64,000 nt of DNA from a virus: the IMG/VR virus record IMGVR_UViG_3300044612_001255, positions 44,292 to 108,291 of that record, one strand, 5' to 3'. Below, one piece after another: positions 4,595-61,500 of this stretch; position 1 is the first letter of the stretch, and each line of letters begins with the position of its first letter. The position numbers and the translations under genes were made by a program. Below the pieces are notes generated by a model that saw only the letters and a program-made list of their open reading frames with translations, searched no databases and had not been told where the DNA came from.

Positions 4595-4610
4595 AATGCT
4601 AAAATAAAAA

Positions 4611-4633
4611 TGTCCAGTGATTAAAACTGGACA
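4611..4633 (-). terminator. Intrinsic terminator on the minus strand
   Basis: Perfect 8-bp stem TGTCCAGT / ACTGGACA with a 7-nt loop. On the minus strand it is followed by TTTTTATTTT. It lies between the stop of the 65-aa gene (4635) and the ATG of the 74-aa gene (4594), so it separates two minus-strand units. Confidence 0.8.
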
Positions 4634-4634
4634 A

Positions 4635-25262: not shown

Positions 25263-25266
25263 AACT

Positions 25267-40567: not shown

Positions 40568-43336
40568 ATGGCTTCATTTACAGATGCAATACCTCAGTTT
40601 AACCCATACATTCAACAGCTTCCTGTTGAGGCTATGGTTACTGTTGGTATGGAGAAGCAACAGCGTTACGACCAAGGGTTACAAAAGATCCAATCTCAGA
40701 TAGATCAAGTTGCAGGGTTAGACATATATAGAACAGAAGATAAGCAACTATTGCAATCTAAACTAAATGAGCTTGGCTCTAAACTGAAGACTGTTGCAGC
40801 TGCTGACTTTTCTAACTATCAGTTAGTTAACTCTGTAGCAGGAATGGCAGGAACTGTTATGAAAGATCCAGCAATTTTTGCTGCTGTTCAGTCTACACAA
40901 AATATCAAGAATAATGAGAAGTTAATGGAGGAGGCTAGACAGAAGAACGAGCTCACTCCTGATAACTTGGATTACTATAACAAAAAATTATTAGCATACG
41001 AAAACTCTGGACTCCTTGATGAAAGAGGAAAGCCTATAGTATTTAATGCTAAGTACGACCCTCACTTTGATGTAGATAAATTTACAAGAGAAACTTTCAA
41101 TGCAGTAAAGCCAAGTGGATTAACTTGGGATGAAGTGTTCACAAAAGATGTAGATGGTAAAACTGTATATTCTCCTGTAATGTTACAAATGGAGAAAGAA
41201 GGTATATTCCCTGAGACAGTAAGGCAAACCATTGATCAAATATTCTCAGATCCAAGAGTTGCAAAACAACTCCAAATTACTGGTGAATATAATTATAAAG
41301 GGCAAGATGCAAATAGTTTAAAAACTATGCTTGTAGGTCAACAGGATTTTAAAATAGCTGAAATCAATAATGAGATTCAAGACCTTACACTAAAAAAGAA
41401 TTCTACTGAAAATCTAGAAGAGAAAGGTAAAATTGATATTCAAATAAAAAATCTCAAAGACGAGATACTCCCTAAAATTAAAAGTAGTTACGCATCACTT
41501 CTTAAAGCAGCTGACTCTAACACTGAGGCTGTAAGAGGATATCTCTATGAGAATGATGTCAGAGGTAGATATACAAGCATGTTTGGTTATATGAAAACTA
41601 AACAGAATAGAGTGCAAGATCCTGATTGGAAAGCTAATTTCGACATGGAGAATGAAACTCAAAGAAGAAGAGAGTGGAGTGCAGACTATTCATATAGAGA
41701 AAGAAGAGATGAAATAGAAGATAAACAGTGGGAAGCTGAACAAGCTCTTGCACGTAAAAAAGCTGGTGAAGAAAGTGGAAGAAGGGCTCTTGGGGAAAAC
41801 TTTGATATAGATAACTTTGATCAAACTTATGATGCTGTAGCTACGCAATATGAAAATTATGATGCTGCATCTCAAGCATATACTAATTCAGGAAATGAAT
41901 TAATTTATAGATCATACTATTCATCTGATCCACAACAAAGAGCTAGACTACAAGATTTAATTAATCGTGGCAGCACTAGAGAAGAAGCCATTACAGCAAT
42001 GGTTGATCAAGATGCAAAAGCATCTAAAGTTGATGTTAATACATTTAGAACAAATAAAATAAACGAGTCTGTAGCAACACTAACTCGAAAAGGTTCTGGA
42101 AACATAGCAAAAGAATTATCAGATGCTATAGCTGTCTATACTCAATCTAGAAGAACTTTCGAAAATGCAAAAACTTCGAAAGATGAAATGGATAAAGTGG
42201 ATAATGGAGTGCTAGGCCAAACGCTTGGTAAGCTATATGAAGGTGATGAAATAAAACCACAAACTATAAAGTTTAGAGGTAGTGACATTACTTTATCCAA
42301 ACAAAATATTATTGATTTAGGTGTATATCTACGTGGTTACAAACACGTATATGGTTTTGCTATTGATGATACTGCTAGAGAAGCTGCAAAAGCTGCTAAG
42401 GTAAGACTCAGTGATCGAGGTTTAGATGGTGTTCTAGAATATGTAATGAGAACTAGAGGCTCGCAGTATGCAGGTGGTTTAGATATAGGTACTAAATTAG
42501 CTAGAACACTTGGCTCCCCGTTTGAAGTAGTAACAGATATATATTCTAACGTTATGGGAGAAACTGGTGAAATTAGTCCCTTGATTAATGAAGTTGATAA
42601 AGTGTATAACGCAATTAATAATTCAGCTTATTCAGAAGGTCTTCAGAAAAAAAGTGAGGTGGCAAAAAGATTTGTAACTCCTGCAAATTTGTCTACTGGT
42701 ATCTTTACAGATAAAGATGCAACTAATAATTTAATTCTATCTGATTTAAAAAGAGTAGCAGCTAATTATAGTGATGTTGGAAATTATTCTCCTGACTATA
42801 AAGATTTTATAGATCATGTATCAGATATAACAGATCCAAAAGAACTAACTATTAAAGCTGGTATTAAGTCTCTTCCAGGAGGGCAACAAGTTGTTGAACT
42901 AGTTGCGTTTGATGGGGGTGTACGAAAAGGCGGACTTACACTTCAGCCAGATGAAGCAGATAATTTTGTAGATACATCAAATCTTTATGTTTCTCAAGAT
43001 CAATTGATGGCTCAAAATGCCATGATTGCAAAGGGATTAAATTCAACATCTTATGGTGATGCAGATGATGTTGAAACATATATGAATAGAGATGCTGAAT
43101 TTCAAAAAATAAGAGGAGATTTTCCACAGTTACAAGGGCTCTCAGGCTATGATGTTATGGGAAATATAGTAAATTTGAATGGGAGATATTACGGGAAGGT
43201 TTTTGTACAGGATTTAACAAGTGGTAAACCGTACATGTTTACAACTGATGGATATGACTTCCCCACTGTCTATAATACCATGAGAGCTATCACACCTAAT
43301 GAAATTGGGAGAATTGTTAACACACCTACAAAGTAA
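40568..43336 (+). CDS. crAss-like cargo protein upstream of the RNA polymerase gene (922 aa)
   Basis: The N-terminus (FTDAIPQFNPYIQQLPVEAM followed by VTVGMEKQQRYDQGLQKIQS) is a pattern I recognise from cargo genes just before the giant RNA polymerase gene in crAss-like phages. Long helices make up residues 20-320 and the central part is Arg/Glu-rich coiled coil (about 360-400). No catalytic motif is visible. It ends three nt before the ATG of the giant gene. It is likely packaged in the capsid and ejected with the polymerase. Confidence 0.75.
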   Translation: MASFTDAIPQFNPYIQQLPVEAMVTVGMEKQQRYDQGLQKIQSQIDQVAGLDIYRTEDKQLLQSKLNELGSKLKTVAAADFSNYQLVNSVAGMAGTVMKDPAIFAAVQSTQNIKNNEKLMEEARQKNELTPDNLDYYNKKLLAYENSGLLDERGKPIVFNAKYDPHFDVDKFTRETFNAVKPSGLTWDEVFTKDVDGKTVYSPVMLQMEKEGIFPETVRQTIDQIFSDPRVAKQLQITGEYNYKGQDANSLKTMLVGQQDFKIAEINNEIQDLTLKKNSTENLEEKGKIDIQIKNLKDEILPKIKSSYASLLKAADSNTEAVRGYLYENDVRGRYTSMFGYMKTKQNRVQDPDWKANFDMENETQRRREWSADYSYRERRDEIEDKQWEAEQALARKKAGEESGRRALGENFDIDNFDQTYDAVATQYENYDAASQAYTNSGNELIYRSYYSSDPQQRARLQDLINRGSTREEAITAMVDQDAKASKVDVNTFRTNKINESVATLTRKGSGNIAKELSDAIAVYTQSRRTFENAKTSKDEMDKVDNGVLGQTLGKLYEGDEIKPQTIKFRGSDITLSKQNIIDLGVYLRGYKHVYGFAIDDTAREAAKAAKVRLSDRGLDGVLEYVMRTRGSQYAGGLDIGTKLARTLGSPFEVVTDIYSNVMGETGEISPLINEVDKVYNAINNSAYSEGLQKKSEVAKRFVTPANLSTGIFTDKDATNNLILSDLKRVAANYSDVGNYSPDYKDFIDHVSDITDPKELTIKAGIKSLPGGQQVVELVAFDGGVRKGGLTLQPDEADNFVDTSNLYVSQDQLMAQNAMIAKGLNSTSYGDADDVETYMNRDAEFQKIRGDFPQLQGLSGYDVMGNIVNLNGRYYGKVFVQDLTSGKPYMFTTDGYDFPTVYNTMRAITPNEIGRIVNTPTK

Positions 43337-43338
43337 CA

Positions 43339-46300
43339 ATGGAAGAAGAAAATGTTGTAAACCCTAAAGGAGTTTCTAATGAAATTCCTTATCCAATAAT
43401 TCCTAACAATCCTGGAAATCAAGTGCCTGGAGAACTTCCTTCTGCAAGGGAAGCTTTTGCCAAATTAGCTGAGCAAAATAGATTTACTGGAGCCCAGAAC
43501 ATTCCTATTTCTTCTTTCTATTCTGGGGGTAACAGATATGGAAAAACAAGACCATTTACTAATTTCGAAGAAATGGCTGCACAAAAGCAGTCTGGATTTG
43601 ATCAAGTTAGAAATGGTCTTGGAAAGGCAGTGGGTATTGCTGGTACGTCTTTCATATCTGGTACAGTTGGATTATTAAATGGTATAGGTTCTTCTATTGC
43701 TAACCAACAGTTTTCTAAACTGTATGATAATCCTACAACACAGTTTATGGATAGGCTTCAGAAGGGTATGGAAGACTATGCTCCTAACTATTATAGACAA
43801 GCTGAGACAGATGCTGAATGGTGGCAATCAGATAACCTACTAACTCCTAACTTCTGGGCAGATAAGGTTATAAAAAATATTGGTTATGGAATTGGTTCTA
43901 TAGCTGGTGGTGCTGCTTGGACTAAAGCATTCAAGTTAGTTGGTAAAGCAAATGCTTTAGTTAAACTTGGCAAAGGTGCAGAGACTGCTGCTACCATTGA
44001 GAAGGCTATGCAGGTTGTTCCTAGGGCACAAAAAATATCAGCTATTGAAGGTGCGTTAGGAAATCTTTCCCAAGGTATAAAGTCACAAATTACAAATAAT
44101 GGACAACGTACATTAACGTCTGTCATGGGTACGTTTGGTGAAGCTTCTATTGAATCTTTGCAAAAGTCAAATGAGTTTAGAGATAATGCTATTGCTGAAT
44201 TTAGAAGTCAAAATGGTATAGATCCAACAGGGAAAGATCTTGATGACATAAATGCATTTGCTGAGAAGGCAGGTAATTATGTATGGGGTATGAATACTAT
44301 TCTTCTAACTGCATCAAACTATATTCAACTTCCTAAAATCTTAGGTTCTTCTAGAAAGGTGGAGAAAGCATTCATCAATGACTTAACACAAAAAGGACTT
44401 GGTAAAGAGTTTATTGAAAAAACTGCAAAAACAAGATTTGGAAAAATAGTAGATACAACAAAAGGTTTGGGTAGATTCTTTATTCAACCAACAGAAGCTG
44501 CTGAAGAAGGGATGCAGTTTGCAATTGCTTCAGGTGTTGATGATTATTTTAACAGAGCCTACACTAATAGAGAAGATCTTGGAACATTCCTAGAAACTAT
44601 TTCTGGAGCAATGGGAAATGTATTTGGAGAAGGCATTGATAAAACTCTAAGTACAAAAGAAGGTATTGAAAGTATATTAATTGGTTCTCTTGCTGGAGGT
44701 ATTCAGCAAGCACCAATGTCTATTTATAGAGAAGGACTTACTGGCAAAGGTGGGCAAAGAAAAAGAAATACTGACATTGCTCTTAAGCAGCTCAATGAGA
44801 CAAACATTGCAGCATCATTAAAAGACCAAGCTAACTTCTTGGCTGTTGGTATAGGTTCTCAAACAATGCGTCAGCAGGCAATAGAGAACAATGATATTCT
44901 TTCAGAAAAAGATTACGAAGCTGATTACTCTCTATCATACTTGATGCCTCGTGCGAAGTATGGTAAGATGGAAAATGTTTATGAAGAACTTGAATACTAC
45001 AAAGAACAAGCATTAAATCCTCAAGGCTTTGCAGAATTGCAAACTGCTGGTGTAGCTTTTGAAAAAGAGTCACCTGCACAATTTGTACAAAGAATTGGAA
45101 ATCTTGAGAATACAGCAAAGGCTGTACAAAAGCACTACGATAATATTAATGAAACCTATGCAGGTGTTTTTAAGACAGATGCAGATGGTAAGATTATTGA
45201 AGATGCAAAAGGAAGGCCTATAAGAAAATACAATCCTGTAGTAGTGGATAAACTTGTTTATGCAGCAAGTAAGATTGATGACTATTCAGCAAGAATTCCA
45301 GGACTAACATCAGTGTTATCTAGTGCAGGTATTAATATTTCTACAATTCTAAATGATGTTCTAGTATCAGAGAAACCTACCATTGAAGCTGTAAAAGAAT
45401 CCATTGATCAAATCAATGCAATGGATGTTGTTAGCGATGTTAAGGATAACTTGAAAAGATCTCTATCAGACTTAATCGAAATGTCACTTAGAAGAAAAGT
45501 GTTCATTGATGATTATAATGATATAAAAAAGAATCCAGAAGTTTTTGAAGCTTTTAGTAGAGCTGAAAGGTTTCGTGAGAAAGGACCTGTAGATGTCACT
45601 CAACAAGAAGGTGGAAAGTCAGTAGTAAAAACTTTAAAGGTGGGCCAAGAGTATTCTTTGGCTGAGCCTATTAGACTTGAGAATGGTAAAATAACACTTG
45701 CTCCAAAGTTTACAATAATTTCTGAAACATTAGGTGGAGAGTTTGAGGTGAGACTTCCTAATGGTAAAGAAGTATTTCTTTCACCACTAGAGTTTAAAAC
45801 ATATAATATATCTGAAGAAGACAACACTTCCCAGGAATTTGAAAATGCATTGAATCAATCTATTGATGACGTACTTCAATATCCTGCCTTTAGAGACGTT
45901 ATTGAGAAGCCAGGAGAAAAGGTAAACAAACTTGCATACATTAACTCTCTTGGCAATCAAAAGCTCAGCGAAGCTGTTGTAAATAGATTTAAAAGACTTA
46001 CTAAAGATATTGTTGAATTAAAAGCTAAGCAGAAAGAAGTCGATAATAAAATAAAGGAACAAAGTTCTGACATTAATAGTCAACAAGATGAAGAGGCTCA
46101 AGCATCAACTGATCCAAAGGTTGAGCTGATTCCATTCGATACACGAATTGATACAGGAGAAACTGGTCCTTTAAAATCTGCTGCTAGATTCTTTAATGCA
46201 AGTAGTAATGAATCTGATGATCCTAATTATAAATATTACAATCCTAATCCTTCTCCACACATTATTCGTGCTAGAGTATTTTTGAATAATGCTAAGAGCA

Positions 46301-49300
46301 ATAAAAATAGAGATAAGTTTAGAGCTATAACATTTACGTACAACCAAGAGAATGATCTTGGACTTTCTGGAGTTACACAACTATCATACGGTGCTAATTG
46401 GGAAACTCAAAAAGGAACTGTCAATGACCTCATTGATGGATTCATAGCACAAGTGTATGTAGAGGTGGATGGCAAGAACAGATATTTTATTGACCAGAAT
46501 GGCAATAGAATAAAAGGTGCTGATGGTAAGGATGTGAAAGTGGGTCAACAAGTTGATCTAGGGAAAGTTGTATTTGAGACACGTCCTACAGCAAGAGAAT
46601 ACAATAGCGATAATAGCGATAGATTCAGAACTCGTCAGAAAGAAGAGTTTATGGATAATATGGAAACTTGGAAGCAGCAGAGAGAAATCTTGTTAGGCAA
46701 TCCTGCCAAACAAATGGCTCCAATGGCTGCAAAAGATCTTCCTACTAATTCATTCATGATCTCTAAAGGTTTTCCACTTATCACTGAAAAGGTAGATGGA
46801 AAATATGTTAAGAATAAAGTAGGTGACACCCTTATTACAGAGTCTCAAATTGAAACTCAATCAGGACTGTTGAAGATTTCAACAGGAACTCCTATTGTAC
46901 ACAGTGGTGAGAACATGAATGCTAAACCTGGAATAGTGTATCTACAAGATAGAGATATGCTACAGGTTCTTAATAATAACTTGTTAGGTGCTAAGAAAGG
47001 CAAGTCAGTGTATGAAGTGATTAAGTCACTCATCAATGACATGCAGCAACAAGCAGCTGATGATAAACCTATACAGTTAGATAGACAAAAACTTAAGTAT
47101 CTAGGATCTGTAATGATTTATGCACGTCCTACAAAAGACATGTTGAATAATCAATTATGGATTGATATTGATTCTATGTCTGTAATGCTTGGTAACAATT
47201 CATATTCATTCAGTGATTTCTTGAAGAATGAAGCAGACGTTATCAAAGCTTTCTCTAGCGTATATCATTCTGCAAATAAAAGATTACTAGATAAGGCTGA
47301 ACCTCATTACGAGTTTGTCTTCAAGGATGGTAAACTAGACTTTGTCAAGTGGCCAAACTATCAATCCTACTTACTATCTGGAACAGATAGATCTGTAGAT
47401 GAGGTACCATTTGTAACTAATGTTAGAAAGAAATCTGACGCACTTCCTTACAACTTTAGAGGTAAGTATGCATATATATCAAACTTCACTGTAGGTGAAA
47501 AGAATACAAACTTCACAGCCCCAGAAGCTCAAGAAGAAAAAGCTCCAGTAGCTCCTCCTATAGAAAGTAAGTCTGAAAGTAATTCTCCTTCAGAAGTAGC
47601 TGAAGCTCTTCCAGTTTTAAACGTGGGAGGATTCACGCTTAACAATGGTTCTACGAATATTGTAGAAGTGTCTAAGCAGCCTATTGAATTCATTGGAACA
47701 GTGAATGAGAAGGGACAGATTAAAGTGGATTTAGATTTTAGAACAGAAGCAAATCAAAAATCTTTTGAGAATGTTGCTGCTGTAATTTCAGAAGAAACAT
47801 TAAATACATATAGAGCAGCTATTCCTCAGCTGAATGAAAGTTCTTCCAAAGAAGATACTATTGTTGAATTCTTTAGATATCAAATAACAGCTAAGATCAA
47901 CAAAGCTCTTAAGGCTCAACAAGAAGCTTCAGCTCCTGCTGCTCCAGTTGTTCCTGCTTCTGATATAGAAGCTAAGAAATTTGATATAGAAAGTTTATTT
48001 AGTATAAATGCCCAGTCTATAATAGATAACAAAGCAGATATACTTTCTAATCCTACTAAATATGAAACTACTCAAACTGTAGGAAATGTTACAACAGAAC
48101 AAACTGTAGACGTTTCAAAAGGAAACATAACAGTTATACAACGTATCTCATCTAATGATAAATCAATATCTTTTTCTAATCGTATTTATTTAAGTTCTAA
48201 GGGTGAAGTTTCTTCTATAATATCTAGAGAAGGGGGAATATCTTTCTTTAAAGATAAGTCAGGGGTTGTTAATGAAGAAGCCAAATTAAAAATGGTAAAT
48301 CTTGCGGAAACAGTAAAAAATTACTTCCCTGAAATCTTTAGTAAAATAGAAGAATATGCTAAGAAGTATAAAGGATTTGTAACTAGTACTGATAACTTTA
48401 GAGAAACTGTTAGACAAACAAAATTTATAGATGCTTTTGATTCTTTCTTATATAATAAAGATTTACTATCAGATGCAGACTTTGCAAGAATAACTTTACA
48501 TAATGCAGAACTAGCTGCTCTAGAAGGTGCTGCATCTACTGAACAAGTATCTAGTAAACAAGTAGAACTAGATCAATATTTAGAGAATGTAGATTACAGA
48601 CCACAAAGCTTAGATCTAGTTGTGTCTAATAGTGGTGTTGATAAATACACAGTTATCGAAGCTGCTAAAAATGTAGAAGAGGCTTCTAATAAAAAATATG
48701 GATTTGGTAGCATTATTCATACACTTAAAGTAACAGGAGGTAATTTAAACTATCCAAATACAACGAAGCCTGAGAGAGAAAGAATACGTTTATATAACGA
48801 AGAACTTGCAAAACTTACAGGCAAACCTGTTGAACAACCAACACCTCCTGCACAACAACCAGCAGCTGAAGCACCTCCAAAATCTAACAAAGGTAAATTC
48901 AAGTCTGGATACAGTGATACAAGAGCTGTATCAAAAGGAGAACTATTTGCTGAGAGAATCTCTGACAGAGACATTAAAGCATTTAAAAAATGGCATGCTG
49001 AGAAAGTACCATTCATACCTTATGAAATCCTTGAACAGATTTACAAATCACTTGATGGTATTGTTGCATGGGGTGTGTTTGAAGGAGGAGTTGCTAAGTT
49101 CTTCAAACGTGGTTTGCGTGGTACAGAGTATCATGAAATATTTGAAGCTATATGGAAGGGATTTCTTTCAGAATCAGAAAGAGCTGCACTCATTGATGAG
49201 TTTAAAAATAGACCTGGTTACTTCTTAGATAGAGAGTCTGGTCAACAGATTGCTTTTTCTGAAGCTACAGACAGACAAGTTAAAGAACGTATTGCTGACG

Positions 49301-52300
49301 ACTTTGCTGACTACAGACTAGGAAAGCTTCCAGCTAGAACATTGTCTGAAAAGATTAAAAGATTCTTCAATGCTATCATTGAGTTCTTCAAAAGCTTTGT
49401 TAACAATCCTTCTTTGAAGCAACAACTCTTTGATGAGATTGAAGCTGGAAGATTTAAAGAGTCAGTACTTCCTGATTATGTAAAAACAGCTCAGCCTGAA
49501 TATAGACCAGTTATGAAACTTCCTGATGGAGCTATTCTATCAGAAGATGAAGCGTACAACATTGTTCAGGACATGGTTATCAGTACATCTGGATATCTGT
49601 TAAACAGAGGGAATGATGATACTGTTGCTAACGTATTTAATATAAAAGGTGTAACTGGAACTGAGGTTTATAATTTTATTAGAAATATTTACGAAGGGAC
49701 TGGTAACTTACAAGCTCTTGGTGACAAACTATTCAATGAGCTGTTCTTGAGAAGTGTTGATAATTTAAGACCATTAGGTGTTAACATTGATACAGATTCT
49801 TTAATATCAGTGAATGATGAGCAAGGAAACAATAGATTGTATTCTCCAGAAGCATTTGAAGTGGACTTGATGAAGAACGCTAGTTTTGCTATCAAGTATA
49901 TACTAGCTACATTACCTTCTGCTAGTAAAAGTGAGCTAGATCCAGAAACAGGTTTGCCTGCTTTGAAAACTGGTGCAGTGGGTCTTCCTGTTCTTTCTAA
50001 TTTCAATAGAACATTTGCTACCCTACTTTCCAAACTTTCTAACACTCCTATTTCAAAGATTCCAGCAAAGTTGATGGAGCTGTACAAGAATGATGGTAAC
50101 TACTATAGAGTTGCTCGATCATTGAATGGTAACATGTCTGCTGAAGATGCTGAAGAACTATTTGATTTTGGAAACTTCACAGACAATGATTGGAGATTAT
50201 ACATCCAATTTGTTCAAGCATTTAATAAGAGTAGACCAGATGCAACTGTTGAGGAAAGAACAGCTAGTCCTGAGGGTGTAAGTGTTATCACTAAGCCAGC
50301 AGACAAGTCATCAGCAATCAATGTACAGAAGTACAACTGGCTTTCTAACATTAAGGTGCTTGGTAGACAAGGTGGTTCAATCATTGATCAGAAGAATCAA
50401 AACTTCTTCATTGACACTGAGCATTCTAAATATCCTAAGAAGAGACCTTCTACAAATACTGAGAGACTTGAGTTTCTAGCAAACATAGGTATTACATTTC
50501 CTGGTGCAGCAATTTCAAACAAAGATGAATTTGTAGATGCGGTTAACAGAATTTACGAATACGGAAGTAAGAACTTAGCAAACTTTAAAAAATTCTTAGG
50601 TGCAGACAGCTCAATCACTAAGCTTGCTGTAATGTATGTTGATTCTTTAAACCCAGATCAAGATACTACAAGATTCAATGTTGAGAACAAACGAACTGGA
50701 AACTATTCAGATAGCAATGCTGTGTCTGTATTTGAAGAAGACTTCAATGATGCACAGACACTTGATGAGTTATTTAAAAAGCGTCCTGAACTAAAAGACG
50801 CTTTCTCACAGAATAGTTTAATCATCAAGAAGGGTGGACTATTCTTTGATAAAGAAGGTAACAAAATCAAAGGTAAGATTCTAAAGATTGGTGTCGTAGA
50901 TGGCATCTCTGAAGAAGATGGTGGAACAACTGTTTCTGGATTAACAGAAGGAGAAAGATTCAGCGTAGAGATAAATCAAAACGTAAAAGGAAACTATTAC
51001 ATTCTTGTACCAGCAGACTCTGCTACAGAAAGAACTTACAACATTGGTAACCAGATCAAGTTTGAAAATACAAACACTGAGATAGGTGACTCTGAGTTCT
51101 TTGATATAATGCGTTCCTATCTAGATGACGAAATTAATCTTGCTCTAGACTGGAGAAACAGAAGCAAACTTTCAGCTGTAGGAGACAGAGCTAAAGAGCT
51201 TCGTTTCTTTAAAGAAATTCTAAGCCCATCATTAGTAAAAAGTATTGAAGGTGTAATTGCAAAAACTAAACTTTCTAAAGAAAAAGCACTTGCAGAAATC
51301 TCTAAGATTCTTAGTGATAATAAGAGTGAGGTGGAATCTTCTATTAGAGAAACTATAGCATATCAAAATGATAAGCTTAACAAAGCACTAACATCTACTG
51401 GTGAGGTTTCTCAAGTTGATGAGAACAGCGTTGACTTCTCATATCTTGATTCAGAATTTGCTGAGAAAAATAAGATTGACAAGAATAAAATCAGTAATGA
51501 AGATTACAATAAGTTTTTGTCATTCCTTAACATGAATCAAATGATTTCCAACATTGAACTTCACAAGTTCATCTTTGGTGATCCTTATCAGTTCGAAGTC
51601 AAGAATGGTAATCTTGAAGAAACCAAGCGTATCAAATCATGGCTTTCTCCAAGAAGAAAAACATTTGATAGTGAGGCAGCAAATGATTTCTTGAATAAGA
51701 AATACAATAAAGTTACTGATGATATTGTCCTATCTGGAAATGATATCACCAGACACAACTTTAACTCTTATGTAAAGACAGTAACATTAACTGATCCAAC
51801 TCCTCAGTCTAGATATTTAAATTCATTTGGGAACTATAAAGAATCTGATGGTTTCTCTCTTATTGGAATAGGAACATTCAGAGAAGTTAAATGGAAGAAT
51901 GCTGAGTGGCCAAAAGAAGCTGAGAATTGGTATCAATGGCAAATGGCATACACTAGACAGAAGCTTTCTAAAATCAAGAAAGCTGATGGAAAGTTTGTAT
52001 ACAACTATGGCAAGAACTCAGCACTTCAAAATCATGATGCAGCTCTGATTCAGAAACCAGAACCATACTATGTTCTAGAAGTATTGAAGCCAATTGTATC
52101 TGGAGCAAAACCAGAACTTGGTAGAATTGAAGGAACCATTGATAAGTTCTCTCAAATGCCATTGTTCTTTAAGGCAATTGAAGGAACGCATTTACAAGAC
52201 CTATACACTCAAATGTTAGAAGAGGGTGTAGGATATGTTGTGTATAGATCTGGTAGAAAAGAGGGTGTGAGAGATACACACAATGTTTATAATGGTAATG

Positions 52301-55300
52301 GTACATTCAACTCTTCAAACTTTGGTGGTAACACTATTGAGAATGTTGCGTGGAGTACTTATGGTATTCAAGTTGAAAACAGTTACGAAGAAGGCAAGCA
52401 ACAGACTAGAGGTAGTCAGCCAATGAAGAACGCATCTTTGGATATGTTCCAATATGGTAAGTCTGTTATGGATGGTGCACAAGAATTGTATGATGATATT
52501 ACAAAAACTCACGATGAGTTCCACCAGTTCCAGTATGAGAAGTTCTTAGAGAATCTTGGAATTGAAGACTTGGGTGATTTATATAGAATTAAAGATGCTA
52601 AGAAAGTTTCTCAAACTCTTGAATATGAACTTCTAAGAAGAGAAGCTTCTGAAAACGTAATCGATACAATTCGTCTGAATGAGAATGGTCAGTTTGGAAT
52701 TCCATTCGAAGCTTCTTCTGCATACGAAGACATTAGAAGTGTATTGTTTTCAATAATAAACAAGTCGTTGATCTCTCCACCAATGGAGGGTAAACCTCAC
52801 GTACAGGTTGCAGCTACACTTTGGGAGAATAGAGACAAGGGAAGAAGAATACTAAGAAAGACAAAAGATGGATACGTAGAGATTAGTAAAGATGAATACG
52901 AAAAACTATCTGATGAAAACAAGAAAGGTGTTGTACTTTCCAGTGACACTCTTAAGTTCTATGAAGATAAGCCAGGAGAAAGACACATTGAAGTAATGAT
53001 TCCAAACTTCTGGAAGAGATACTTTAAAGGAATGTCTGATGAGCAAATTCTAGAATATCTTAATAAGCCAGAGAACCAAAAAATCTTGTTTGGTATAGGA
53101 TTTCGTATTCCTCACCAAGCAGCTTCTTCTACAGAAGTATTTAAGGTTAAAGGGTTCTTACATCCATCTATGGGATCTACAGTTGTTGTTCCTTCTGAGA
53201 TTGTACAGAAAGCAGGATCTGACTTTGATATTGATAAGCTCAACATGTATCTGAAAGCAGTTTATGTTGATCAGAATGGAGACGTAAAACTTATAGAGTA
53301 CAAGGGTAGCAAAAAAGCTACTATGGACTTCTATGCAAAAGTTTATGATGAGCAGATCAAAAATGAAATAGAAGATATTGAAGCTGGCGATGAGTTTAGA
53401 AACAACTTAATTGAAGTTTTTGAAATTCTTGAATCTATAGAAGATCCTTCTTCAATGACTGGTGAAGCATTGAAATCTCTTCTTGGTGATAAACTTTCCA
53501 AATTCTATACTAAAAAACAACAGACGATTAACAACATTATCAATGTTGCTCTTTCTAAAAAGCAAAGGCCTTCTGATTACATTGGTGATCAGGTGGGTAG
53601 AATGGCTGATAAATATGCAAAGCTAACAGAGAAGCAGTTAAGCGAGTCTATGAAAAAAGACTTTGTAGACTTGATGTATAAGAAGTCTCTTGAGAATAGA
53701 TACTTTGAACTACTTCAAGAAATAGTTACTCTTCCTGAAAACTTTGAAAGACTACTGACTCCTGTTGGTGATGCTAATTTACCAGAGGTTGCTAAAGAAC
53801 TTGATAAAGCTAGACAAGATGAAGAAGCTACGTTTAAGAATAAACTTCTATCAAAGACATTCTTAACATCTCTCAGACATGCATTCTTGCTTGGTAAGAA
53901 GTGGGTGGGTATTGCTGCTGTTAACATTACAGGACATTCCATTGCACAGAAGATCAATGCTTATCTAGACCCAAGAAGACTTAATGATATAGATGCATAC
54001 GATGCTAGCTTCTTAGGGGACATGTCTCTTGCTGTCCCTCACAATACTGTAGAGGTGGATGGTCAGAAGATGATTGCTCTTGGTGGTAGAACCACTGCTT
54101 ATTCTAAGAAAGATAAAGAAGGTAAGAGTGTATTCGAGTTCATATCAGACAGACTATCTGGATATGCTACAGCATTCGTAGACGTTGCAAAAGATCCATA
54201 CATCATGAAGATCTTGAGAAGCGATTTGGTTGTTAGTACAGCAATGTTTATGGAACGCATAGGTGTTGGTGAACTTACGCCATATTTCTTGAATCAACCT
54301 ATCATCATCGACTACTTGAAGTATCTTGATAGAATTGGTAGTAGATCACTATTCTCTAAAAATAACATCGCAGAGATAGATGCTATGTATCCTATAGAAT
54401 TTGGTAAGAGCTACAACTTGAAACAAGACTTCGTTATAGATGAGAGTACAGGTTTGGTAGATTTTGAAAAATCAAAAGCAAACCTACTATCGTCTATTGA
54501 TATAACAGCTGAGAGAAATGATGAATTTAATCTTAAGCAGAGAGCTGTACTTAATGAGTTCCTCAGACTCTCTAAGATGGGTCAGTTTAGCTTTAAATTC
54601 ACTCAGGCATACAACTATGACACCACTCGTGTAAGAACCACTGAGAGCGTACTTAGAAAGGTTGCTAGAACAGAAGCTGCTGAAGAGAAGAATATTATTT
54701 CTTCAATCAATGATGTGTTCAAACAAACATTCATTGGTGATCAAAAAAGATTGATCATTGAAGAAGTGAAAGCATTGAGTGCGATATTCAAGCTAGACGC
54801 AGATGTGTTCTATAGCGTGATAGATGAGGTGATGAAACCTTTTGTTAACGATGAGTACATGTCAATCGATGACTTTGATAGAGTGGCTAGAAAGGTTAAA
54901 ACTTCATTCATTGATTACCTTACACAAAACAAGTCTACTAGATTCTCTAAGGAAATTATAGATGACCTAGTGATTGGTAAGAATAACATTGCAGTACAAC
55001 TTGCAAAGTTGCAAGATAAGTATGCAAGTAGTGAACTCTTATCAAACCTTGAACCTAGATTCTCTAATCACGAGGGTGGTGCAGTAACTGTTTCATTGAA
55101 GGTTAAACCAAAAGATGCTGCTTCTGTAAATAGATACATTGGATTGATGAGAGAACTTAAGTCTTATGAACCTGAGTTTTACAACAACTTGTTATTGGTT
55201 AACTTGTTACAAGGAACCTATGAAACAAAAATCAACATCAACAAAGTTATCCCTCTAGAAGATAGAGCTGAGATTATTGCTCCAGTGATTAGTTCAAATT

Positions 55301-58300
55301 ATTCATTTGAGAACATTAAAGACTTCTCTAGAAATGGTGCTTTCTTCAGAACTAATTTCTCTGACGATAAAGTGGTTCCTTTCTTTAGTCCAAGATACAA
55401 TGTGACTGAAGGAAATATTGATTATAAATCTTCAGGATTTGCTACAATGAAAGAAATTGGAGCTAAGCCTGGTAATGGTAAAGTGCTAAGACTTTCTAAG
55501 AAGTATGACAAGTTTAATCACTCTAACATGGACTTCTTGAAGGTAACTAGATACCAATATGCTAGAGGATATATTATTGATATCACTGGGGAGAAAAATC
55601 CAATGTCATACGATAATTTCAAAAAGCTTGTCCTAAATGGTGAGTTGTCAAAATCAGAAATTGTTGGATACCAAAAGGTAAAAGATTTGGCTGGAGCACC
55701 ATTAGAAGATGAAAAAGGTAACACCTATTTTAAAATGGTGAACTTGTATGGTGATGGTGATCTTGTTAAGATTTACAAAACAAATGGACTGCCTTCTGCA
55801 ATAAACAACAACACTTACAAGGTTGATAAGGAGATTCAAAACAGTGACATAATTGCATTTGTAAATAATGAAGTTATTAATCCTCTTGAAACAGCTGAGA
55901 AAATTGATGTTGCAGCTGAGCTAGCTCCTGTTCCAGAAGTTGCAACACCTATTACTAGTAAGGTTGAGCGCACTACAAGAATGATCAATAGATCAGAATT
56001 GAGAGCTAATCCTAAAACATTGTATTTATTTGGAGACAATGATTCTAGAAAAGGTCTTGGTGGTCAGGCTAAAGAAATGAGAAATGAGCCTAATGCAATT
56101 GGTATATCAACTAAAAAACTACCAGCCAGTTCAGAACAATCTTACAAAACTGATGCAGAACTTGATGTAAATAAAAAAATCATCAAAGATGATATTGATA
56201 AAGCAATTGCTGCATGGAGCACTGGTAAGTATAATAAACTTATAATTCCTCAACTAGGAGTGGGCTTAGCAGAGCTTCCTACAAGAGCTCCTCAAACATA
56301 TGAGTTTTTACAACAAGAACTTCAGAGACTTGAAAACTACATAAACGGTGTTCAAGAAGCTGCAACTCCTGTTGAAGAAGTTGAAGAAGTTGAGTTCACT
56401 ACAACAAAGCTATTCAAATACTTTGGAAGATTTTACAACATTGTAATTGATCAAGATGGTAAAGCAATTGATGTAGAAGGTTACAAAGGAAAGGAAGATG
56501 CCAAACAAAAGCTTCTTGATGCATATAAAGCAAATCCAAATGTTGACCCACAGAGCAACAAACCATTCTTTGCAGAAGATGCATTTATTGAAGAAGAGGA
56601 AGCACCTGAAGTGGTTAGTGGAAACTCATTTAAGTTTGAGGATGGCACTGTAATCAATACAGGAAACATCACTCTTAATGAACAACAGAAAGAAGCTTTG
56701 CAACTTGCTGTAAATGCAATCAAAAAGAACCAGACAAAGTTTGTTCTTAGAGGATATGCTGGAACAGGTAAGTCAACCATTTCTAAATTCGTAAGAGAAT
56801 ATTTACAGAATAGTAAATCATTCAAAGATGTAAGCTATGCATCTCCTACACATAAGGCAAATACCAATTTGCTAATTCAATTACTTCGTGGTAAAGTGTT
56901 TAACACAATGCCTTTCACAACAGCAAGTTTATTGAATAAAATTAAAGGAGAAGATGGTGACTTCATTGCTGGTCCAAAAGATAAAATGCCATACTCTGGA
57001 GTGTTAATTGTTGACGAAAGCTCAATGATTGATGCACAGGACTATAACTTATTGATGGGACTAGCAAAGAGAAAAGGAACAACCGTTATATTCATGGGTG
57101 ATCCAGCTCAACTACCTCCTGTAGGAAGCAGTCAATTGAGTAAAGCTCTACAGTTCTCATCTTCTGAGGATGGTGTAGAACTCACTCAAGTGATGCGTCA
57201 GCAAGGAGACAATCCTTTGTTAGATATTCTTACGAACATTCGTCAGAATCTAACTACAGTGGTTGACAGATTTAGCTTCAGCACTAATGTAAATGGTAGA
57301 GGAGAAGGTGTAGAGTTCACGAATGATTACTTGTCATTCAATGACAAGATGCTTCAATACTTCAAATCACCTGAGTATAAAGAAGATCCTACATACGCTA
57401 AGGTGCTCACTTACACCAATGCATCTGTTGCTAACTACAACAACTTAATCCAGTCTCAATTAGGACTTTCACCTTATGGTGTAGGATCTATCATGATGGG
57501 ATATGAGCAAGTTGGTCAGACACCTAACGTTCACAATGGTCAGGATTACAAAATCTTGGAGAGTCAGTATATCACTGATAGAGATGTAAAAGTGTTTGAT
57601 GGAAATGTTGGAAACAAATACTTCAACATTGAAGAGAAAGTTTCTGGATATAAGGTTCAAATGAGAAGAGTGTTCTCTAAAGAAGATGAGCAGTTACTAA
57701 ATGATACAGGTCAGACAGCTCTTCTTAGACCACTTGATGTGTTCATCATTAACCCTAATGATGATAGAAACCTTAAATTCATGGAGCGAGTGCTGGCATT
57801 CAAAAAGGTATTGAATGATAAAACAATTCCTTGGAAACTTCGACAAGATCCTCTTAATCAATTTGAAAGCTTCTTCAACACTTATCAGCTACCTGCTGAC
57901 ATGATCAGCTATAAAGGAAAAATTACAACTCTTCCTAAGTTGAAACAAGAGAATCCAGAGTTATTTAAAGTGAATAGACAAACAGGAAAAACTCTATTTG
58001 AAGAAACTGCAACTTCAGAAAGACCAATGCTTGCTAAGAACATTGACTATGGTTATGCTGTAACTTCTCACAAAGGACAAGGATCAACTTACCAGTATGT
58101 CTTTGATGACTATGAGAACATGGAGAACCCAGCAAACAACAGAGTTATTTCTGATGGAGATGTTAAATATGCTATTGAAAGACAACAATTGAAATATGTT
58201 GGACTATCTAGAGCATCAAAGATTGCATTTGTCTTTACTAGAAAGGCTGGTACTGATGAGCTTTATTCTTCACAAGAAATTCAATCTGAACCATCTTACA

Positions 58301-58503
58301 TTCCTGAAAGTCAAGAAAGCTTCGTACCTTGGTCTATTGAATCTGAAGGACAGGCATCAGGAGTTAGAAGTTTCTACGAATCCCTAACCCCTGACCAAAA
58401 GCTGAAATTAGGTTCTTTGCAAGACATTATTTCTGAGTATAATGAATTACCAACAGAAATTAGTGAGCGAACCTTTATAGAAATGTTAATGTGTAGACTA
58501 TAA
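43339..58503 (+). CDS. Giant virion polypeptide: cargo region, degenerate zincin, RNA polymerase, macro-like module, SF1B helicase (5,054 aa)
   Basis: Regions in order: a cargo-type start with hydrophobic glycine-rich segments (about 85-205); GTEYHEIFE at about 1929-1936, like HExxH but with Glu for the second His; a long RNA polymerase-like part with GSDFDIDKLN, whose D3295, D3297 and D3299 match the metal-binding DxDxD motif of double-psi beta-barrel RNA polymerases; YLFGDNDSRKGLGGQAKEMR (from 4229), a macro-like module; and an SF1B (RecD2/Dda-like) helicase with GYAGTGKST (4472-4480), VDESS (D4559), GDPAQLPPVG (4587) and SHKGQGSTY (4910). In the phi14:2 virus a related RNA polymerase is carried in the virion and transcribes early genes. 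The fusion is very large and may be cut after synthesis. Confidence 0.85.
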   Translation: MEEENVVNPKGVSNEIPYPIIPNNPGNQVPGELPSAREAFAKLAEQNRFTGAQNIPISSFYSGGNRYGKTRPFTNFEEMAAQKQSGFDQVRNGLGKAVGIAGTSFISGTVGLLNGIGSSIANQQFSKLYDNPTTQFMDRLQKGMEDYAPNYYRQAETDAEWWQSDNLLTPNFWADKVIKNIGYGIGSIAGGAAWTKAFKLVGKANALVKLGKGAETAATIEKAMQVVPRAQKISAIEGALGNLSQGIKSQITNNGQRTLTSVMGTFGEASIESLQKSNEFRDNAIAEFRSQNGIDPTGKDLDDINAFAEKAGNYVWGMNTILLTASNYIQLPKILGSSRKVEKAFINDLTQKGLGKEFIEKTAKTRFGKIVDTTKGLGRFFIQPTEAAEEGMQFAIASGVDDYFNRAYTNREDLGTFLETISGAMGNVFGEGIDKTLSTKEGIESILIGSLAGGIQQAPMSIYREGLTGKGGQRKRNTDIALKQLNETNIAASLKDQANFLAVGIGSQTMRQQAIENNDILSEKDYEADYSLSYLMPRAKYGKMENVYEELEYYKEQALNPQGFAELQTAGVAFEKESPAQFVQRIGNLENTAKAVQKHYDNINETYAGVFKTDADGKIIEDAKGRPIRKYNPVVVDKLVYAASKIDDYSARIPGLTSVLSSAGINISTILNDVLVSEKPTIEAVKESIDQINAMDVVSDVKDNLKRSLSDLIEMSLRRKVFIDDYNDIKKNPEVFEAFSRAERFREKGPVDVTQQEGGKSVVKTLKVGQEYSLAEPIRLENGKITLAPKFTIISETLGGEFEVRLPNGKEVFLSPLEFKTYNISEEDNTSQEFENALNQSIDDVLQYPAFRDVIEKPGEKVNKLAYINSLGNQKLSEAVVNRFKRLTKDIVELKAKQKEVDNKIKEQSSDINSQQDEEAQASTDPKVELIPFDTRIDTGETGPLKSAARFFNASSNESDDPNYKYYNPNPSPHIIRARVFLNNAKSNKNRDKFRAITFTYNQENDLGLSGVTQLSYGANWETQKGTVNDLIDGFIAQVYVEVDGKNRYFIDQNGNRIKGADGKDVKVGQQVDLGKVVFETRPTAREYNSDNSDRFRTRQKEEFMDNMETWKQQREILLGNPAKQMAPMAAKDLPTNSFMISKGFPLITEKVDGKYVKNKVGDTLITESQIETQSGLLKISTGTPIVHSGENMNAKPGIVYLQDRDMLQVLNNNLLGAKKGKSVYEVIKSLINDMQQQAADDKPIQLDRQKLKYLGSVMIYARPTKDMLNNQLWIDIDSMSVMLGNNSYSFSDFLKNEADVIKAFSSVYHSANKRLLDKAEPHYEFVFKDGKLDFVKWPNYQSYLLSGTDRSVDEVPFVTNVRKKSDALPYNFRGKYAYISNFTVGEKNTNFTAPEAQEEKAPVAPPIESKSESNSPSEVAEALPVLNVGGFTLNNGSTNIVEVSKQPIEFIGTVNEKGQIKVDLDFRTEANQKSFENVAAVISEETLNTYRAAIPQLNESSSKEDTIVEFFRYQITAKINKALKAQQEASAPAAPVVPASDIEAKKFDIESLFSINAQSIIDNKADILSNPTKYETTQTVGNVTTEQTVDVSKGNITVIQRISSNDKSISFSNRIYLSSKGEVSSIISREGGISFFKDKSGVVNEEAKLKMVNLAETVKNYFPEIFSKIEEYAKKYKGFVTSTDNFRETVRQTKFIDAFDSFLYNKDLLSDADFARITLHNAELAALEGAASTEQVSSKQVELDQYLENVDYRPQSLDLVVSNSGVDKYTVIEAAKNVEEASNKKYGFGSIIHTLKVTGGNLNYPNTTKPERERIRLYNEELAKLTGKPVEQPTPPAQQPAAEAPPKSNKGKFKSGYSDTRAVSKGELFAERISDRDIKAFKKWHAEKVPFIPYEILEQIYKSLDGIVAWGVFEGGVAKFFKRGLRGTEYHEIFEAIWKGFLSESERAALIDEFKNRPGYFLDRESGQQIAFSEATDRQVKERIADDFADYRLGKLPARTLSEKIKRFFNAIIEFFKSFVNNPSLKQQLFDEIEAGRFKESVLPDYVKTAQPEYRPVMKLPDGAILSEDEAYNIVQDMVISTSGYLLNRGNDDTVANVFNIKGVTGTEVYNFIRNIYEGTGNLQALGDKLFNELFLRSVDNLRPLGVNIDTDSLISVNDEQGNNRLYSPEAFEVDLMKNASFAIKYILATLPSASKSELDPETGLPALKTGAVGLPVLSNFNRTFATLLSKLSNTPISKIPAKLMELYKNDGNYYRVARSLNGNMSAEDAEELFDFGNFTDNDWRLYIQFVQAFNKSRPDATVEERTASPEGVSVITKPADKSSAINVQKYNWLSNIKVLGRQGGSIIDQKNQNFFIDTEHSKYPKKRPSTNTERLEFLANIGITFPGAAISNKDEFVDAVNRIYEYGSKNLANFKKFLGADSSITKLAVMYVDSLNPDQDTTRFNVENKRTGNYSDSNAVSVFEEDFNDAQTLDELFKKRPELKDAFSQNSLIIKKGGLFFDKEGNKIKGKILKIGVVDGISEEDGGTTVSGLTEGERFSVEINQNVKGNYYILVPADSATERTYNIGNQIKFENTNTEIGDSEFFDIMRSYLDDEINLALDWRNRSKLSAVGDRAKELRFFKEILSPSLVKSIEGVIAKTKLSKEKALAEISKILSDNKSEVESSIRETIAYQNDKLNKALTSTGEVSQVDENSVDFSYLDSEFAEKNKIDKNKISNEDYNKFLSFLNMNQMISNIELHKFIFGDPYQFEVKNGNLEETKRIKSWLSPRRKTFDSEAANDFLNKKYNKVTDDIVLSGNDITRHNFNSYVKTVTLTDPTPQSRYLNSFGNYKESDGFSLIGIGTFREVKWKNAEWPKEAENWYQWQMAYTRQKLSKIKKADGKFVYNYGKNSALQNHDAALIQKPEPYYVLEVLKPIVSGAKPELGRIEGTIDKFSQMPLFFKAIEGTHLQDLYTQMLEEGVGYVVYRSGRKEGVRDTHNVYNGNGTFNSSNFGGNTIENVAWSTYGIQVENSYEEGKQQTRGSQPMKNASLDMFQYGKSVMDGAQELYDDITKTHDEFHQFQYEKFLENLGIEDLGDLYRIKDAKKVSQTLEYELLRREASENVIDTIRLNENGQFGIPFEASSAYEDIRSVLFSIINKSLISPPMEGKPHVQVAATLWENRDKGRRILRKTKDGYVEISKDEYEKLSDENKKGVVLSSDTLKFYEDKPGERHIEVMIPNFWKRYFKGMSDEQILEYLNKPENQKILFGIGFRIPHQAASSTEVFKVKGFLHPSMGSTVVVPSEIVQKAGSDFDIDKLNMYLKAVYVDQNGDVKLIEYKGSKKATMDFYAKVYDEQIKNEIEDIEAGDEFRNNLIEVFEILESIEDPSSMTGEALKSLLGDKLSKFYTKKQQTINNIINVALSKKQRPSDYIGDQVGRMADKYAKLTEKQLSESMKKDFVDLMYKKSLENRYFELLQEIVTLPENFERLLTPVGDANLPEVAKELDKARQDEEATFKNKLLSKTFLTSLRHAFLLGKKWVGIAAVNITGHSIAQKINAYLDPRRLNDIDAYDASFLGDMSLAVPHNTVEVDGQKMIALGGRTTAYSKKDKEGKSVFEFISDRLSGYATAFVDVAKDPYIMKILRSDLVVSTAMFMERIGVGELTPYFLNQPIIIDYLKYLDRIGSRSLFSKNNIAEIDAMYPIEFGKSYNLKQDFVIDESTGLVDFEKSKANLLSSIDITAERNDEFNLKQRAVLNEFLRLSKMGQFSFKFTQAYNYDTTRVRTTESVLRKVARTEAAEEKNIISSINDVFKQTFIGDQKRLIIEEVKALSAIFKLDADVFYSVIDEVMKPFVNDEYMSIDDFDRVARKVKTSFIDYLTQNKSTRFSKEIIDDLVIGKNNIAVQLAKLQDKYASSELLSNLEPRFSNHEGGAVTVSLKVKPKDAASVNRYIGLMRELKSYEPEFYNNLLLVNLLQGTYETKININKVIPLEDRAEIIAPVISSNYSFENIKDFSRNGAFFRTNFSDDKVVPFFSPRYNVTEGNIDYKSSGFATMKEIGAKPGNGKVLRLSKKYDKFNHSNMDFLKVTRYQYARGYIIDITGEKNPMSYDNFKKLVLNGELSKSEIVGYQKVKDLAGAPLEDEKGNTYFKMVNLYGDGDLVKIYKTNGLPSAINNNTYKVDKEIQNSDIIAFVNNEVINPLETAEKIDVAAELAPVPEVATPITSKVERTTRMINRSELRANPKTLYLFGDNDSRKGLGGQAKEMRNEPNAIGISTKKLPASSEQSYKTDAELDVNKKIIKDDIDKAIAAWSTGKYNKLIIPQLGVGLAELPTRAPQTYEFLQQELQRLENYINGVQEAATPVEEVEEVEFTTTKLFKYFGRFYNIVIDQDGKAIDVEGYKGKEDAKQKLLDAYKANPNVDPQSNKPFFAEDAFIEEEEAPEVVSGNSFKFEDGTVINTGNITLNEQQKEALQLAVNAIKKNQTKFVLRGYAGTGKSTISKFVREYLQNSKSFKDVSYASPTHKANTNLLIQLLRGKVFNTMPFTTASLLNKIKGEDGDFIAGPKDKMPYSGVLIVDESSMIDAQDYNLLMGLAKRKGTTVIFMGDPAQLPPVGSSQLSKALQFSSSEDGVELTQVMRQQGDNPLLDILTNIRQNLTTVVDRFSFSTNVNGRGEGVEFTNDYLSFNDKMLQYFKSPEYKEDPTYAKVLTYTNASVANYNNLIQSQLGLSPYGVGSIMMGYEQVGQTPNVHNGQDYKILESQYITDRDVKVFDGNVGNKYFNIEEKVSGYKVQMRRVFSKEDEQLLNDTGQTALLRPLDVFIINPNDDRNLKFMERVLAFKKVLNDKTIPWKLRQDPLNQFESFFNTYQLPADMISYKGKITTLPKLKQENPELFKVNRQTGKTLFEETATSERPMLAKNIDYGYAVTSHKGQGSTYQYVFDDYENMENPANNRVISDGDVKYAIERQQLKYVGLSRASKIAFVFTRKAGTDELYSSQEIQSEPSYIPESQESFVPWSIESEGQASGVRSFYESLTPDQKLKLGSLQDIISEYNELPTEISERTFIEMLMCRL

Positions 58504-61500
58504 TGATCAGTTGTGTAAATAAAAACGATAAGAACTTCAAGGTTCTTGAGAAGGAATATGGAGCAGGCTTAGCAGAGGTGTTCGTAAGATCATACTCAAA
58601 AAGAGTCAAGCTTCTTCCTGATGGGGAATTCTATATTCCTACAAAAAAGGAATTCCTTGATTGGTACATGTCTGATAAAAAAACAATTGAATCAAAGATA
58701 AATTATATACTTAGTGAAAACCCAAGACTTTCAGAGAAGACTATCAAACAGTTATTGAAAGGTGTAATACACACATTGGGCGATACAAACTTCATCACCT
58801 CTGGATTTACAAACAGAGGATCTCTAGCTATTACAAGTGAGCAGTTAAAGACTGTCTTCACTCCAAACTATGAGATGATGAAACGTCTTGCTAGTAATCA
58901 TCCAGATATATTTGAAATAGTAAACACTAAGGTTTCTAATAGAAAGATTGTAAAGATTAAAGCATCCAAAGGTGAAGCATTACCTGTAGGAAGACCTGAC
59001 ATAAAAATTGGTGTTAAGTATTTTCCAAATGGAAATGTTACCAAAGTGGGAACTATACTGAATAAAATAAGCAATTCATCACACCCACTTAAAGAAGTTG
59101 CTCAGAAACTAAAAGGCTTTGTTCAAATAAATAATGTTGATGTAGAGTTAGTTGACACTACACACTTTCAAAATATTGCTCCAGGCGTTGAAAGATCTAG
59201 AGGATATTTTGACGTTGCAAAGAATAAAATATTCATTGCTAAAAATGCAAACGTGGCAAATGGATTATCTGAAACTGTACTTCTACATGAGATTCTCCAC
59301 GCATTCACATACTTTGCCCTTAGAGAAGATACTAATGTTCGTAGAGACTTTGAGAAGCTTTACGATGCAGCAATTGAATCACTTGGTAAATATGATGGTC
59401 AGTCGAAAACTGGCTATTACGCAAACTATACAATAGATGAATTTATTGTAGGATTGTTTACAGATGCAAAATTCATCACTGCTTTACAATCCGTACCACC
59501 AATTGATGGAATCAAATACACAAACCTATTTGAGGAAATCATGAATTACCTAATTAATATTCTAGGACTGAATTCAAATCCTAGTTTATATAATCAGGCA
59601 ATGTCTGTTGCTTCACAAATCTTGGACACTGAGTTTAGTAGAATTGAATTACAAAGACAGTTCTATGAATCTGGTCCAATGTTGCAAGTCAATGATGATA
59701 GAACTTTACCATCGTCAGCTTCTCCAAAAACTCTAGCATTAATTAAAGACTTTATAAAACAAATTGGTGTTGACATAAAGTTGTTGGAGAAAATTAGTGT
59801 TAATGGGCAAACACAAGATGCTAATGGTGCTGCCCAGTTAATGCAAAAACTTATATCTGTTGTAGAAGGAAAAGAAGCACAGGCTCTTCCAGAAGAAGCC
59901 ATGCACTTTGCTGTATCCATTATCAAGCAAACCAACCCTAAGCTTTACCAAAAGCTTATGAAAGAGATTAATGGATATGATATGCTCACACAAGTGTTTA
60001 AGACATATGGTAATAGTCCACTTTATCAAAAGGATGGAAAGCCTGATGTTGTTAAAATCAAGGAAGAAGCTATTGCAAAAGTTTTAGTTAACACAATCAT
60101 TTCCAAAGTTGAAAATACTAGAGAAAGTAAAGACGATGTATTGAAGGCTCAATCTTGGTGGTTGAATATTCTTGAGTGGTTGAAGTCTCTTGTCTATCAA
60201 AAGTCAGGATTTGATCAAGCTGCTATTGATGTCATTTCTGGAAAAGATATTGGAACAGCAGCTGATATTAGAGAGTCTGAAGACGCAACATTTCTACAGC
60301 AGTCTCAACAAGAAAAAGTTTATGACCTTATCAAAAGCATTTCTAATAAAATTGGTGAGCCAAAACTTAATGATAAAGGTGAACAGAGATACTTTATAGA
60401 TGGTAAGGAAATTAAGTTTCGTGTATCAGACTTTGCAAAAGGTTCTTATGAAAAATGGAAGAAGTCAAACAATCTTCCTAAAGATGAATACGATCAGTTT
60501 CTTGACGACTTAAGACAGGAAAAAGGAACAGCTGGACATGCTGACTTTCAACATGCGTTCAAACTATTTACTGATGAGGACGGATATTTTATTCAAGATA
60601 GTACAATTAGAAATGAAAATAAACTAGCTGATAACCATCAATCATTTACAGGAGATCAGGATATATACCTATCTATTAGAGACCACATAGAAGCGAGACT
60701 TGCATCCTACCCAGCTAAGACAAGATTCATGTCTGAGGTTACTATTTACGATGGTGTAAGTGTTGGTGGTACAATAGACTTTTTAGCAATTGAACCTGAT
60801 GCGAGTGTGAACATCCTTGATTGGAAGTTTATGAGCTTGAACACAGACTTCTATACTGATGTGCCTTGGTATAAAATTGAATCTTGGAACATTCAAATGA
60901 ATCAGTACAAGAAGATTCTTACTAAGAACTATGGTGTAGAACCAGCAAACTTCAAGGAAACACGAATGATTCCTATTCTTGCAAAATACTCAAAAGGTAA
61001 GAAGGATAAGCAAGGTGCTATAATTGAAGAACCTAGATTGACAGGAATCAAGATAGGTGATGTAGATGTTACTAAAGTTGAGGAAGATGAAATGTATCTC
61101 CTACCTGTAGCAACTCCTGATGAACTTACTGGAAGTAGAAATCTAGATAAATTTCTATCTAGATTAAATGACATGTACAGTATGTTGAAGAAGCAAAAAG
61201 CTGATCCTAATGATAGTAGAGAAAAGAAAGAATCACTAAATGCTTTATTTGGATCTATACGAAGACTTCAGATACAAAGAAATGTTAAACCTTTAATCGC
61301 TCAAGTTACACTTCTTAATAAGAAGATTGAAAAGTTAGTTGAGAGATATGAGAATGAATACAAGAATAAAGATTGGTCAGAAGTTGGAAATGATGAACAA
61401 GTTGAGGAAATCAAGAGTGCATTTCTAAAAGAACTAGATGATGCAGAGTTTGCAATGAAAACTTACATAGACATCAATAGGAGCTTAAGAGAAGTTGTCA

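Follow-up and report, generated by a model that had tools for sequence, protein, structure and literature searches.

The closest described counterparts of the gene examined here are the virion-packaged RNA polymerases (RNAPs) of Crassvirales phages, namely gp66 of phi14:2 (PDB 6VR4) and the gp47, gp50, and gp49 set of crAss001. The three crAss001 proteins have been identified by mass spectrometry (MS) as virion cargo and must partly unfold (PMC10172136), and phi14:2 g065 to g067 also carry MS annotation. An open question is what lets several giant proteins pass in a fixed order from the capsid down a narrow tail; the authors of the crAss001 structure went no further than suggesting that packing and contacts between the proteins decide the order of ejection. 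Here we analyze a probable virion-packaged RNAP of a Crassvirales-type phage, encoded by a 5,054-residue open reading frame (ORF) in a 64,000-nt window, which is the right 64 kb of the 108,291-base virus record IMGVR_UViG_3300044612_001255; coordinates are positions in this window, and L-numbers (L015, L050, L145, and so on) label sampled loci or contigs. We think it probable, with appreciable room for doubt, that this polymerase belongs to an ejected "train" of chains coupled end to end, probably through disulfides, and carrying an exchangeable, probably counter-defence payload.

The window's chain resembles the phi14:2 and crAss001 polymerases in its DFDID center, its colinear homology, its place after the structural genes, and its gp47-like partner, but it fuses the gp47-like and catalytic chains and adds a DUF7831 module and a superfamily 1B (SF1B) helicase before the C terminus. 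An RNAP and a C-terminal SF1 helicase share one coding sequence, ending with a C-terminal Cys, in cr118_1 gp14 (4,946 aa, annotated as exonuclease V) and cr50_1 gp059 (annotated as DNA helicase), although both lack DUF7831 and their SF1 cores are only distantly similar to the window's (26.8% identity for that of cr118_1). A giant RNAP chain with C-terminal DUF7831 is found in cr130_1 gp79 (5,801 aa, TAG recoded), but there the module is accompanied by NADAR, there is no helicase, and the chain has 26 Cys. The polyvalent proteins that Iyer et al. (2017, PMC5512222) described from phages and conjugative elements are giant, injected, multidomain proteins with exchangeable enzymatic modules, including ART-PolyVal; the window's chain is likewise giant, with several effector-type domains swapped between elements, but its core is a crAss RNAP, and single-Cys coupling ends are not described there. 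The viral NAD+-ADP-ribose toolkit (PMC9503650) includes SLOG, NADAR, and DUF4326-like combinations in phages, some of them packaged in heads, although crAss phages and attachment to virion RNAPs go unmentioned in that survey. The virion RNAP of P23-45 is also reported to lie within a giant structural chain (PMC10770324), but it is fused to the tape measure and belongs to another RNAP lineage.

The chain and the protein that follows it have these features:

43339-58503, + strand: giant, predicted virion RNA polymerase chain; ATG start, 5,054 aa, no internal stop; its single Cys is residue 5052
43339-49698, + strand: N-terminal part, residues ~1-2120, homologous to nearly full-length crAss001 gp47 (profile of 19 relatives, E = 4.2e-74, colinear); PHROG_32390 at residues 76-453
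49129-49152, + strand: degenerate zincin motif YHEIFEAI (HExxE), residues 1931-1938
51016-54438, + strand: RNAP catalytic region, residues 2560-3700 (A3 profile vs. 6VR4, E = 3e-39; phmmer, residues 2933-3358, E = 1.9e-20)
53221-53235, + strand: catalytic DFDID, residues 3295-3299, invariant in 19 aligned relatives
54436-55878, + strand: conserved C-terminal RNAP-chain module, residues 3700-4180, the last part in common with relatives
55975-56316, + strand: DUF7831 module, residues 4213-4326 (PF25176, E = 2.9e-34)
56656-58278, + strand: SF1B Dda/RecD2-like helicase, residues ~4440-4980 (motifs I-VI, family profiles)
58366-58500, + strand: putative C-terminal coupler segment, residues 5010-5054, ending FIEMLMCRL; covaries with the N terminus of the next protein
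58492-58494, + strand: TGT codon of Cys5052
58503-63998, + strand: next protein, at least 1832 aa, open at the window end, starting MISCVNKN; overlaps the giant's stop by 1 nt; the part seen has one Cys, residue 4
58512-58514, + strand: TGT codon of Cys4, the predicted partner of Cys5052

Terminal cysteines and matched chain ends

The terminal cysteines are a more surprising result than the three-part fusion. Among distinct giant chains, 83/84 have a Cys within the last 8 residues, the exception ending at the edge of its locus, and a C-terminal Cys is present in 80/81 giants vs. 17/214 control ORFs (at least 250 aa, same loci). At the 81 paired junctions, every giant carries a Cys among its last 8 residues, and a Cys lies at residue 3 to 5 in 80 of the 81 following proteins; these proteins (mean length 1,654 aa as seen) contain exactly one Cys in 77 of 81 cases. 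The ends come in matched types: ..EIGKLLKSIC with M.TCPN.NLDSWK..LV, ..SCVPF with M.NCNDKKKFKTSEASTK, ..DFKCKF with MSCQTGIKTAVEKYV, and ..FIEMLKCRL with M..C.NK...FK.L...YG. With Cys masked, similarity between C-terminal ends tracks similarity between N-terminal ends (r = 0.88; partial r = 0.87 after controlling for the RNAP core and the partner body; maximum 0.13 in 2,000 permutations), and the clusters of end types agree with an adjusted mutual information of 0.86 vs. 0.13 when shuffled.

Named phages show the same arrangement. In phi14:2, g067 ends in its sole Cys, g066 has just two, at residues 3 and 2179, and g065 carries one at residue 3; gp47 (C2339), gp50 (C5 and C2404), and gp49 (C5) of crAss001 have the same layout, with gp47 on the strand opposite gp50 and the ends ~11.6 kb apart. 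In p-crAssphage, gp45 ends SCM and gp44 starts MSC, and Suoliviridae giants have a Cys-containing tail (CKGK in cr4_1 and cr52_1) followed by a protein with an early Cys. As its first ~2,120 residues are homologous to gp47, the window's chain is a fusion of a gp47-like protein and a g066-like catalytic chain, which are separate proteins in Steigviridae, and the fused joint has no Cys: chain break points vary by family, and the cysteines follow them.

The paired cysteines could instead do something other than bridge two chains, for example form one metal site between them or act as a signal for packaging or processing, which we regard as unlikely. The support for bonding consists of sequence patterns, and Cys pairs bind metals too; yet two Cys would not make a full zinc site in the absence of conserved His or Cys, the ends are otherwise unrelated between types and still matched between partners, and, in three families, the cysteines are confined to true chain breaks. 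We rejected a DNA-level cause, because both TGT and TGC codons are used, gene gaps range from -4 to +462 nt, and the crAss001 ends are unlinked.

An exchangeable payload

The conserved part of the chain stops near residue 4180 and is followed by a variable payload. We surveyed 83 distinct relatives, counting the window's chain among them, and found a recognized payload past this point in 36 and none in 47. The modules are DUF7831 (9 chains, some of them sampled by a DUF7831 search), HExxH (8), SF1 helicase (7), NADAR (5), AlkB (5), an unnamed module (5), A1S_2505 (4), ASCH-like (4), DUF4326-like (2), SLOG (1), and ART-like (1). Calls for NADAR, AlkB (4/5), helicase, DUF7831, SLOG, and A1S_2505 are Pfam or NCBIfam matches above cut-off, in representatives only; the ASCH-like, DUF4326-like, and HExxH labels are our own reading of the sequence, and ART-like is a sub-threshold Pfam match. 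The unnamed module, which recurs in the tails of L015, L028, L037, L046, and L057 (..LETIVLNNLPKITP.SA.KETG..IIIDILSSGSKANY..), has no Pfam match where tested.

Payloads can be composite, as in L050 (AlkB-NADAR-ASCH-helicase), and three chains have A1S_2505 and an SF1 helicase at the site of the window's DUF7831 and helicase. RNAP-helicase fusions recur (cr118_1, cr50_1), and the RNAP-DUF7831-helicase trio is found in the window's chain alone among the 83; it is one payload combination of a general modular design. The gut phages cr118_1, cr50_1, and cr130_1 carry such fusions under partial names, and some public records of these polymerases are named for the tail domain only. We found no description of RNAP tail payloads or coupler cysteines in the openly accessible papers and surveys that the search covered.

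A proposed model for ordered ejection

The proposal that the chain is delivered by the virion, made in an initial annotation of this DNA, gains support from the MS detection of its homologues gp47 and g066 in virions and from its near lack of Cys, as in other ejected giants; N4 gp50 (3,008 residues examined), L145, and L150 all have zero Cys. By analogy, the window's chain would be ejected into the host, and the near absence of Cys is consistent with such delivery. In the model that we propose, the chain enters the host along with the DNA, probably partly unfolded, and nearly all cysteine has been lost, probably to avoid misbridging in the oxidizing virion or periplasm. Cys5052 would face Cys4 of the next protein at a matched junction, and the link between them would most likely be a disulfide that orders the cargo proteins and is reduced on reaching the cytoplasm; a disulfide is the simplest chemistry because the virion and periplasm are oxidizing and the cytoplasm is reducing. 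Whether Crassvirales eject their RNAP proteins as such a covalent train, with matched docking ends and a disulfide released in the reducing cytoplasm, we judge to be evenly balanced. The payload, placed between polymerase and coupler, would work immediately on arrival, ahead of phage gene expression, and most likely shields or clears the incoming template from nucleotide- or NAD-based host defence and lesions. We favor this counter-defence or lesion role because of the immediate availability of the payload and its module make-up.

Several points weigh against the train. The C-terminal Cys of p-crAssphage gp47 (L212:10141-12714; 857 aa, single Cys two residues from the end) has no evident partner, the next protein, gp46, having zero Cys. 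Gut crAss chains are less Cys-poor (8 Cys in p-crAssphage gp44, 26 in cr130_1 gp79), and the next protein is tied to cr4_1 gp27 and not by sequence to g065 or gp49. The covariation of ends is strong but is no proof of contact, since one recombination event could move both adjacent ends; a disulfide would form late, as phages assemble in the reducing cytoplasm; and both the disulfide and co-ejection are deduced from sequence. Furthermore, the payload is dispensable, given that 47/83 relatives have no recognized one.

The main rival to a counter-defence role is direct help with transcription or template handling, in which the helicase would serve melting, displacement, or recycling and DUF7831 would be a polymerase-associated nucleotide module. 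DUF7831 is inserted in family-B DNA polymerases (L137, L149), an N4-type virion RNAP (L038/L145), and DFDxD proteins (L161, L162), an SWI2/SNF2 helicase tracks RNAP in jumbo phages (PMC7824862), and the 108-kb record yielded no second Dda-like helicase. However, the same RNAP comes without any payload in many relatives, and the site can hold modules that are not transcription factors (NADAR, AlkB, ART-like, and HExxH), leaving this role a minority prospect.

If the train is real, redox-controlled coupling would fix the order and stoichiometry of ejection and let an exchangeable payload ride the polymerase. The payload survey shows gut and environmental crAss-like phages attaching exchangeable enzymes to a protein that would arrive ahead of phage gene expression. 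The near-universal terminal Cys pairs and matched docking segments make ejection order directly testable in cultured phages.

The DUF7831 module

The initial annotation called the module between polymerase and helicase macro-like and suggested that transcription and DNA unwinding may be injected as a unit, with the macro-like part reading or removing ADP-ribose on host targets; in this view the helicase would open DNA for the polymerase. The module belongs to Pfam DUF7831, with a score of 117.9 bits against a gathering cut-off of 27. No test supported the macro label: searching six relatives and the window's record with Pfam Macro (PF01661) gave zero matches at E <= 1, macro domains are absent among the matches of a PDB sequence profile with DUF7831, and Foldseek with a good AlphaFold2 (AF2) model of the module (predicted local distance difference test, pLDDT, 87) returned nothing from PDB at E <= 0.001. 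Against BFVD, good scores were obtained for DUF7831-type proteins only, including those of crAss phages cr130_1 and cr131_1 and of giant viruses. TIM matches of the PDB profile were rejected as chance, and phage tk.4 as a weak fold match (TM 0.50, E 3.4, BFVD).

The order of the loops GLGGQA and PQLGVGLA, compared by eye, recalls macro domains. All three parts stand in a single open frame, relatives carry NADAR or SLOG, and three other chains pair A1S_2505 with SF1 at the same site; because the related payload modules include NADAR and SLOG, ADP-ribose handling by DUF7831 is a plausible guess. Against this, the DUF7831 model has three strands vs. six in macro domains (PMC9503650), the modules also occur apart, and the exact trio is seen once among 83 chains. 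Injection as a unit therefore stands insofar as the three parts share one chain, but a single functional unit is weakened by tail modules that are individually optional and exchanged between relatives, and we consider it improbable.

DUF7831 keeps 74-79% identity across chains that share ~25% identity in their RNAP cores, so it moves independently of the RNAP core. It also occurs in polyvalent-type giants. In several phage contigs it separates the exonuclease domain from the polymerase domain in a family-B DNA polymerase of ~1,035-1,080 aa (L137:8891-11995, L149:7178-10417). A 4,818-aa frame with zero Cys (L145:4847-19300, contig of L038) combines it with N4-type virion RNAP domains, and in L162:1-3681 and L161:2-11212 it is downstream of DFDGD and DFDKD, possibly marking other double-barrel RNAPs; L161 also matches ART-PolyVal.

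Polymerase, helicase, and genome context

The single unbroken frame and the motif positions given in the initial annotation (DFDID at 3295, YLFGDN from 4229, helicase set from 4472) proved right; the second of these extends to YLFGDND. An assembly artefact or chance fusion within this one contig, conceivable for a single metagenomic record, is refuted by at least seven independent records in which RNAP and helicase share a single frame, among them the annotated cr118_1 and cr50_1, and we give it practically no weight.

D.D.D occurs once in the chain, as DFDID, which aligns with 6VR4. The phmmer match is to phi14:2 gp66, and a profile of 15 relatives gives the 6VR4 match as four colinear stretches that cover DFDID and 6VR4 residues 805-1682. 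A crAss-type RNAP of the two-barrel family is thus present, the colinear homology implying two double-psi barrels in one chain, as predicted from sequence comparison; an AF2 model of residues 2560-3700 was poor (pLDDT 59, predicted template modelling score 0.37). The RNAP gene of cr108_1 is split within the catalytic motif (L214:14506-26096), gp54 ending ..AGSD and gp53 starting LYDIDKMY ~290 nt on, as for an intron. At the zincin-like motif, 51 giants have HExxE and 10 have HExxH, so most of these predicted proteases are probably degenerate.

The full SF1B set expected in the same chain was recovered: motifs I (GYAGTGKST, 4472), Ia (4502), II (VDES, 4558), III (GDPAQLPP, 4587), V (TSHKGQGST, 4909), and VI (VGLSRAS, 4954), with profile matches to AAA_30 (E = 7e-28) and a Dda-like PHROG (E = 1e-71). 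The helicase is complete and, by these profiles, closest to Dda/RecD2; a viral scan with this region returned no relatives.

The genome is crAss-like, because its terminase and portal match crAss-like phages. The terminase also matches Cellulophaga phages and has its best match in a Leptolyngbya phage, and the sole match of the major capsid protein is a Leptolyngbya phage (26%). No thioredoxin was found in the window's record; p-crAssphage (L217) has one and a truncated one (gp37, gp39), and cr108_1 also has one.

Other genes of the window lie upstream of the giant:

37767-40526 and 40568-43336, + strand: two ~920-aa proteins with zero Cys and no coupler Cys; probable ejection cargo

Before them, 34796-37765 encodes a 989-aa protein with zero Cys and an endolysin domain, probably an ejected lysin. 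The tail or virion genes at 28396-33456, 33468-33926, and 25234-25782 have a Cys in their last 3 residues, and the two that were checked hold other Cys.
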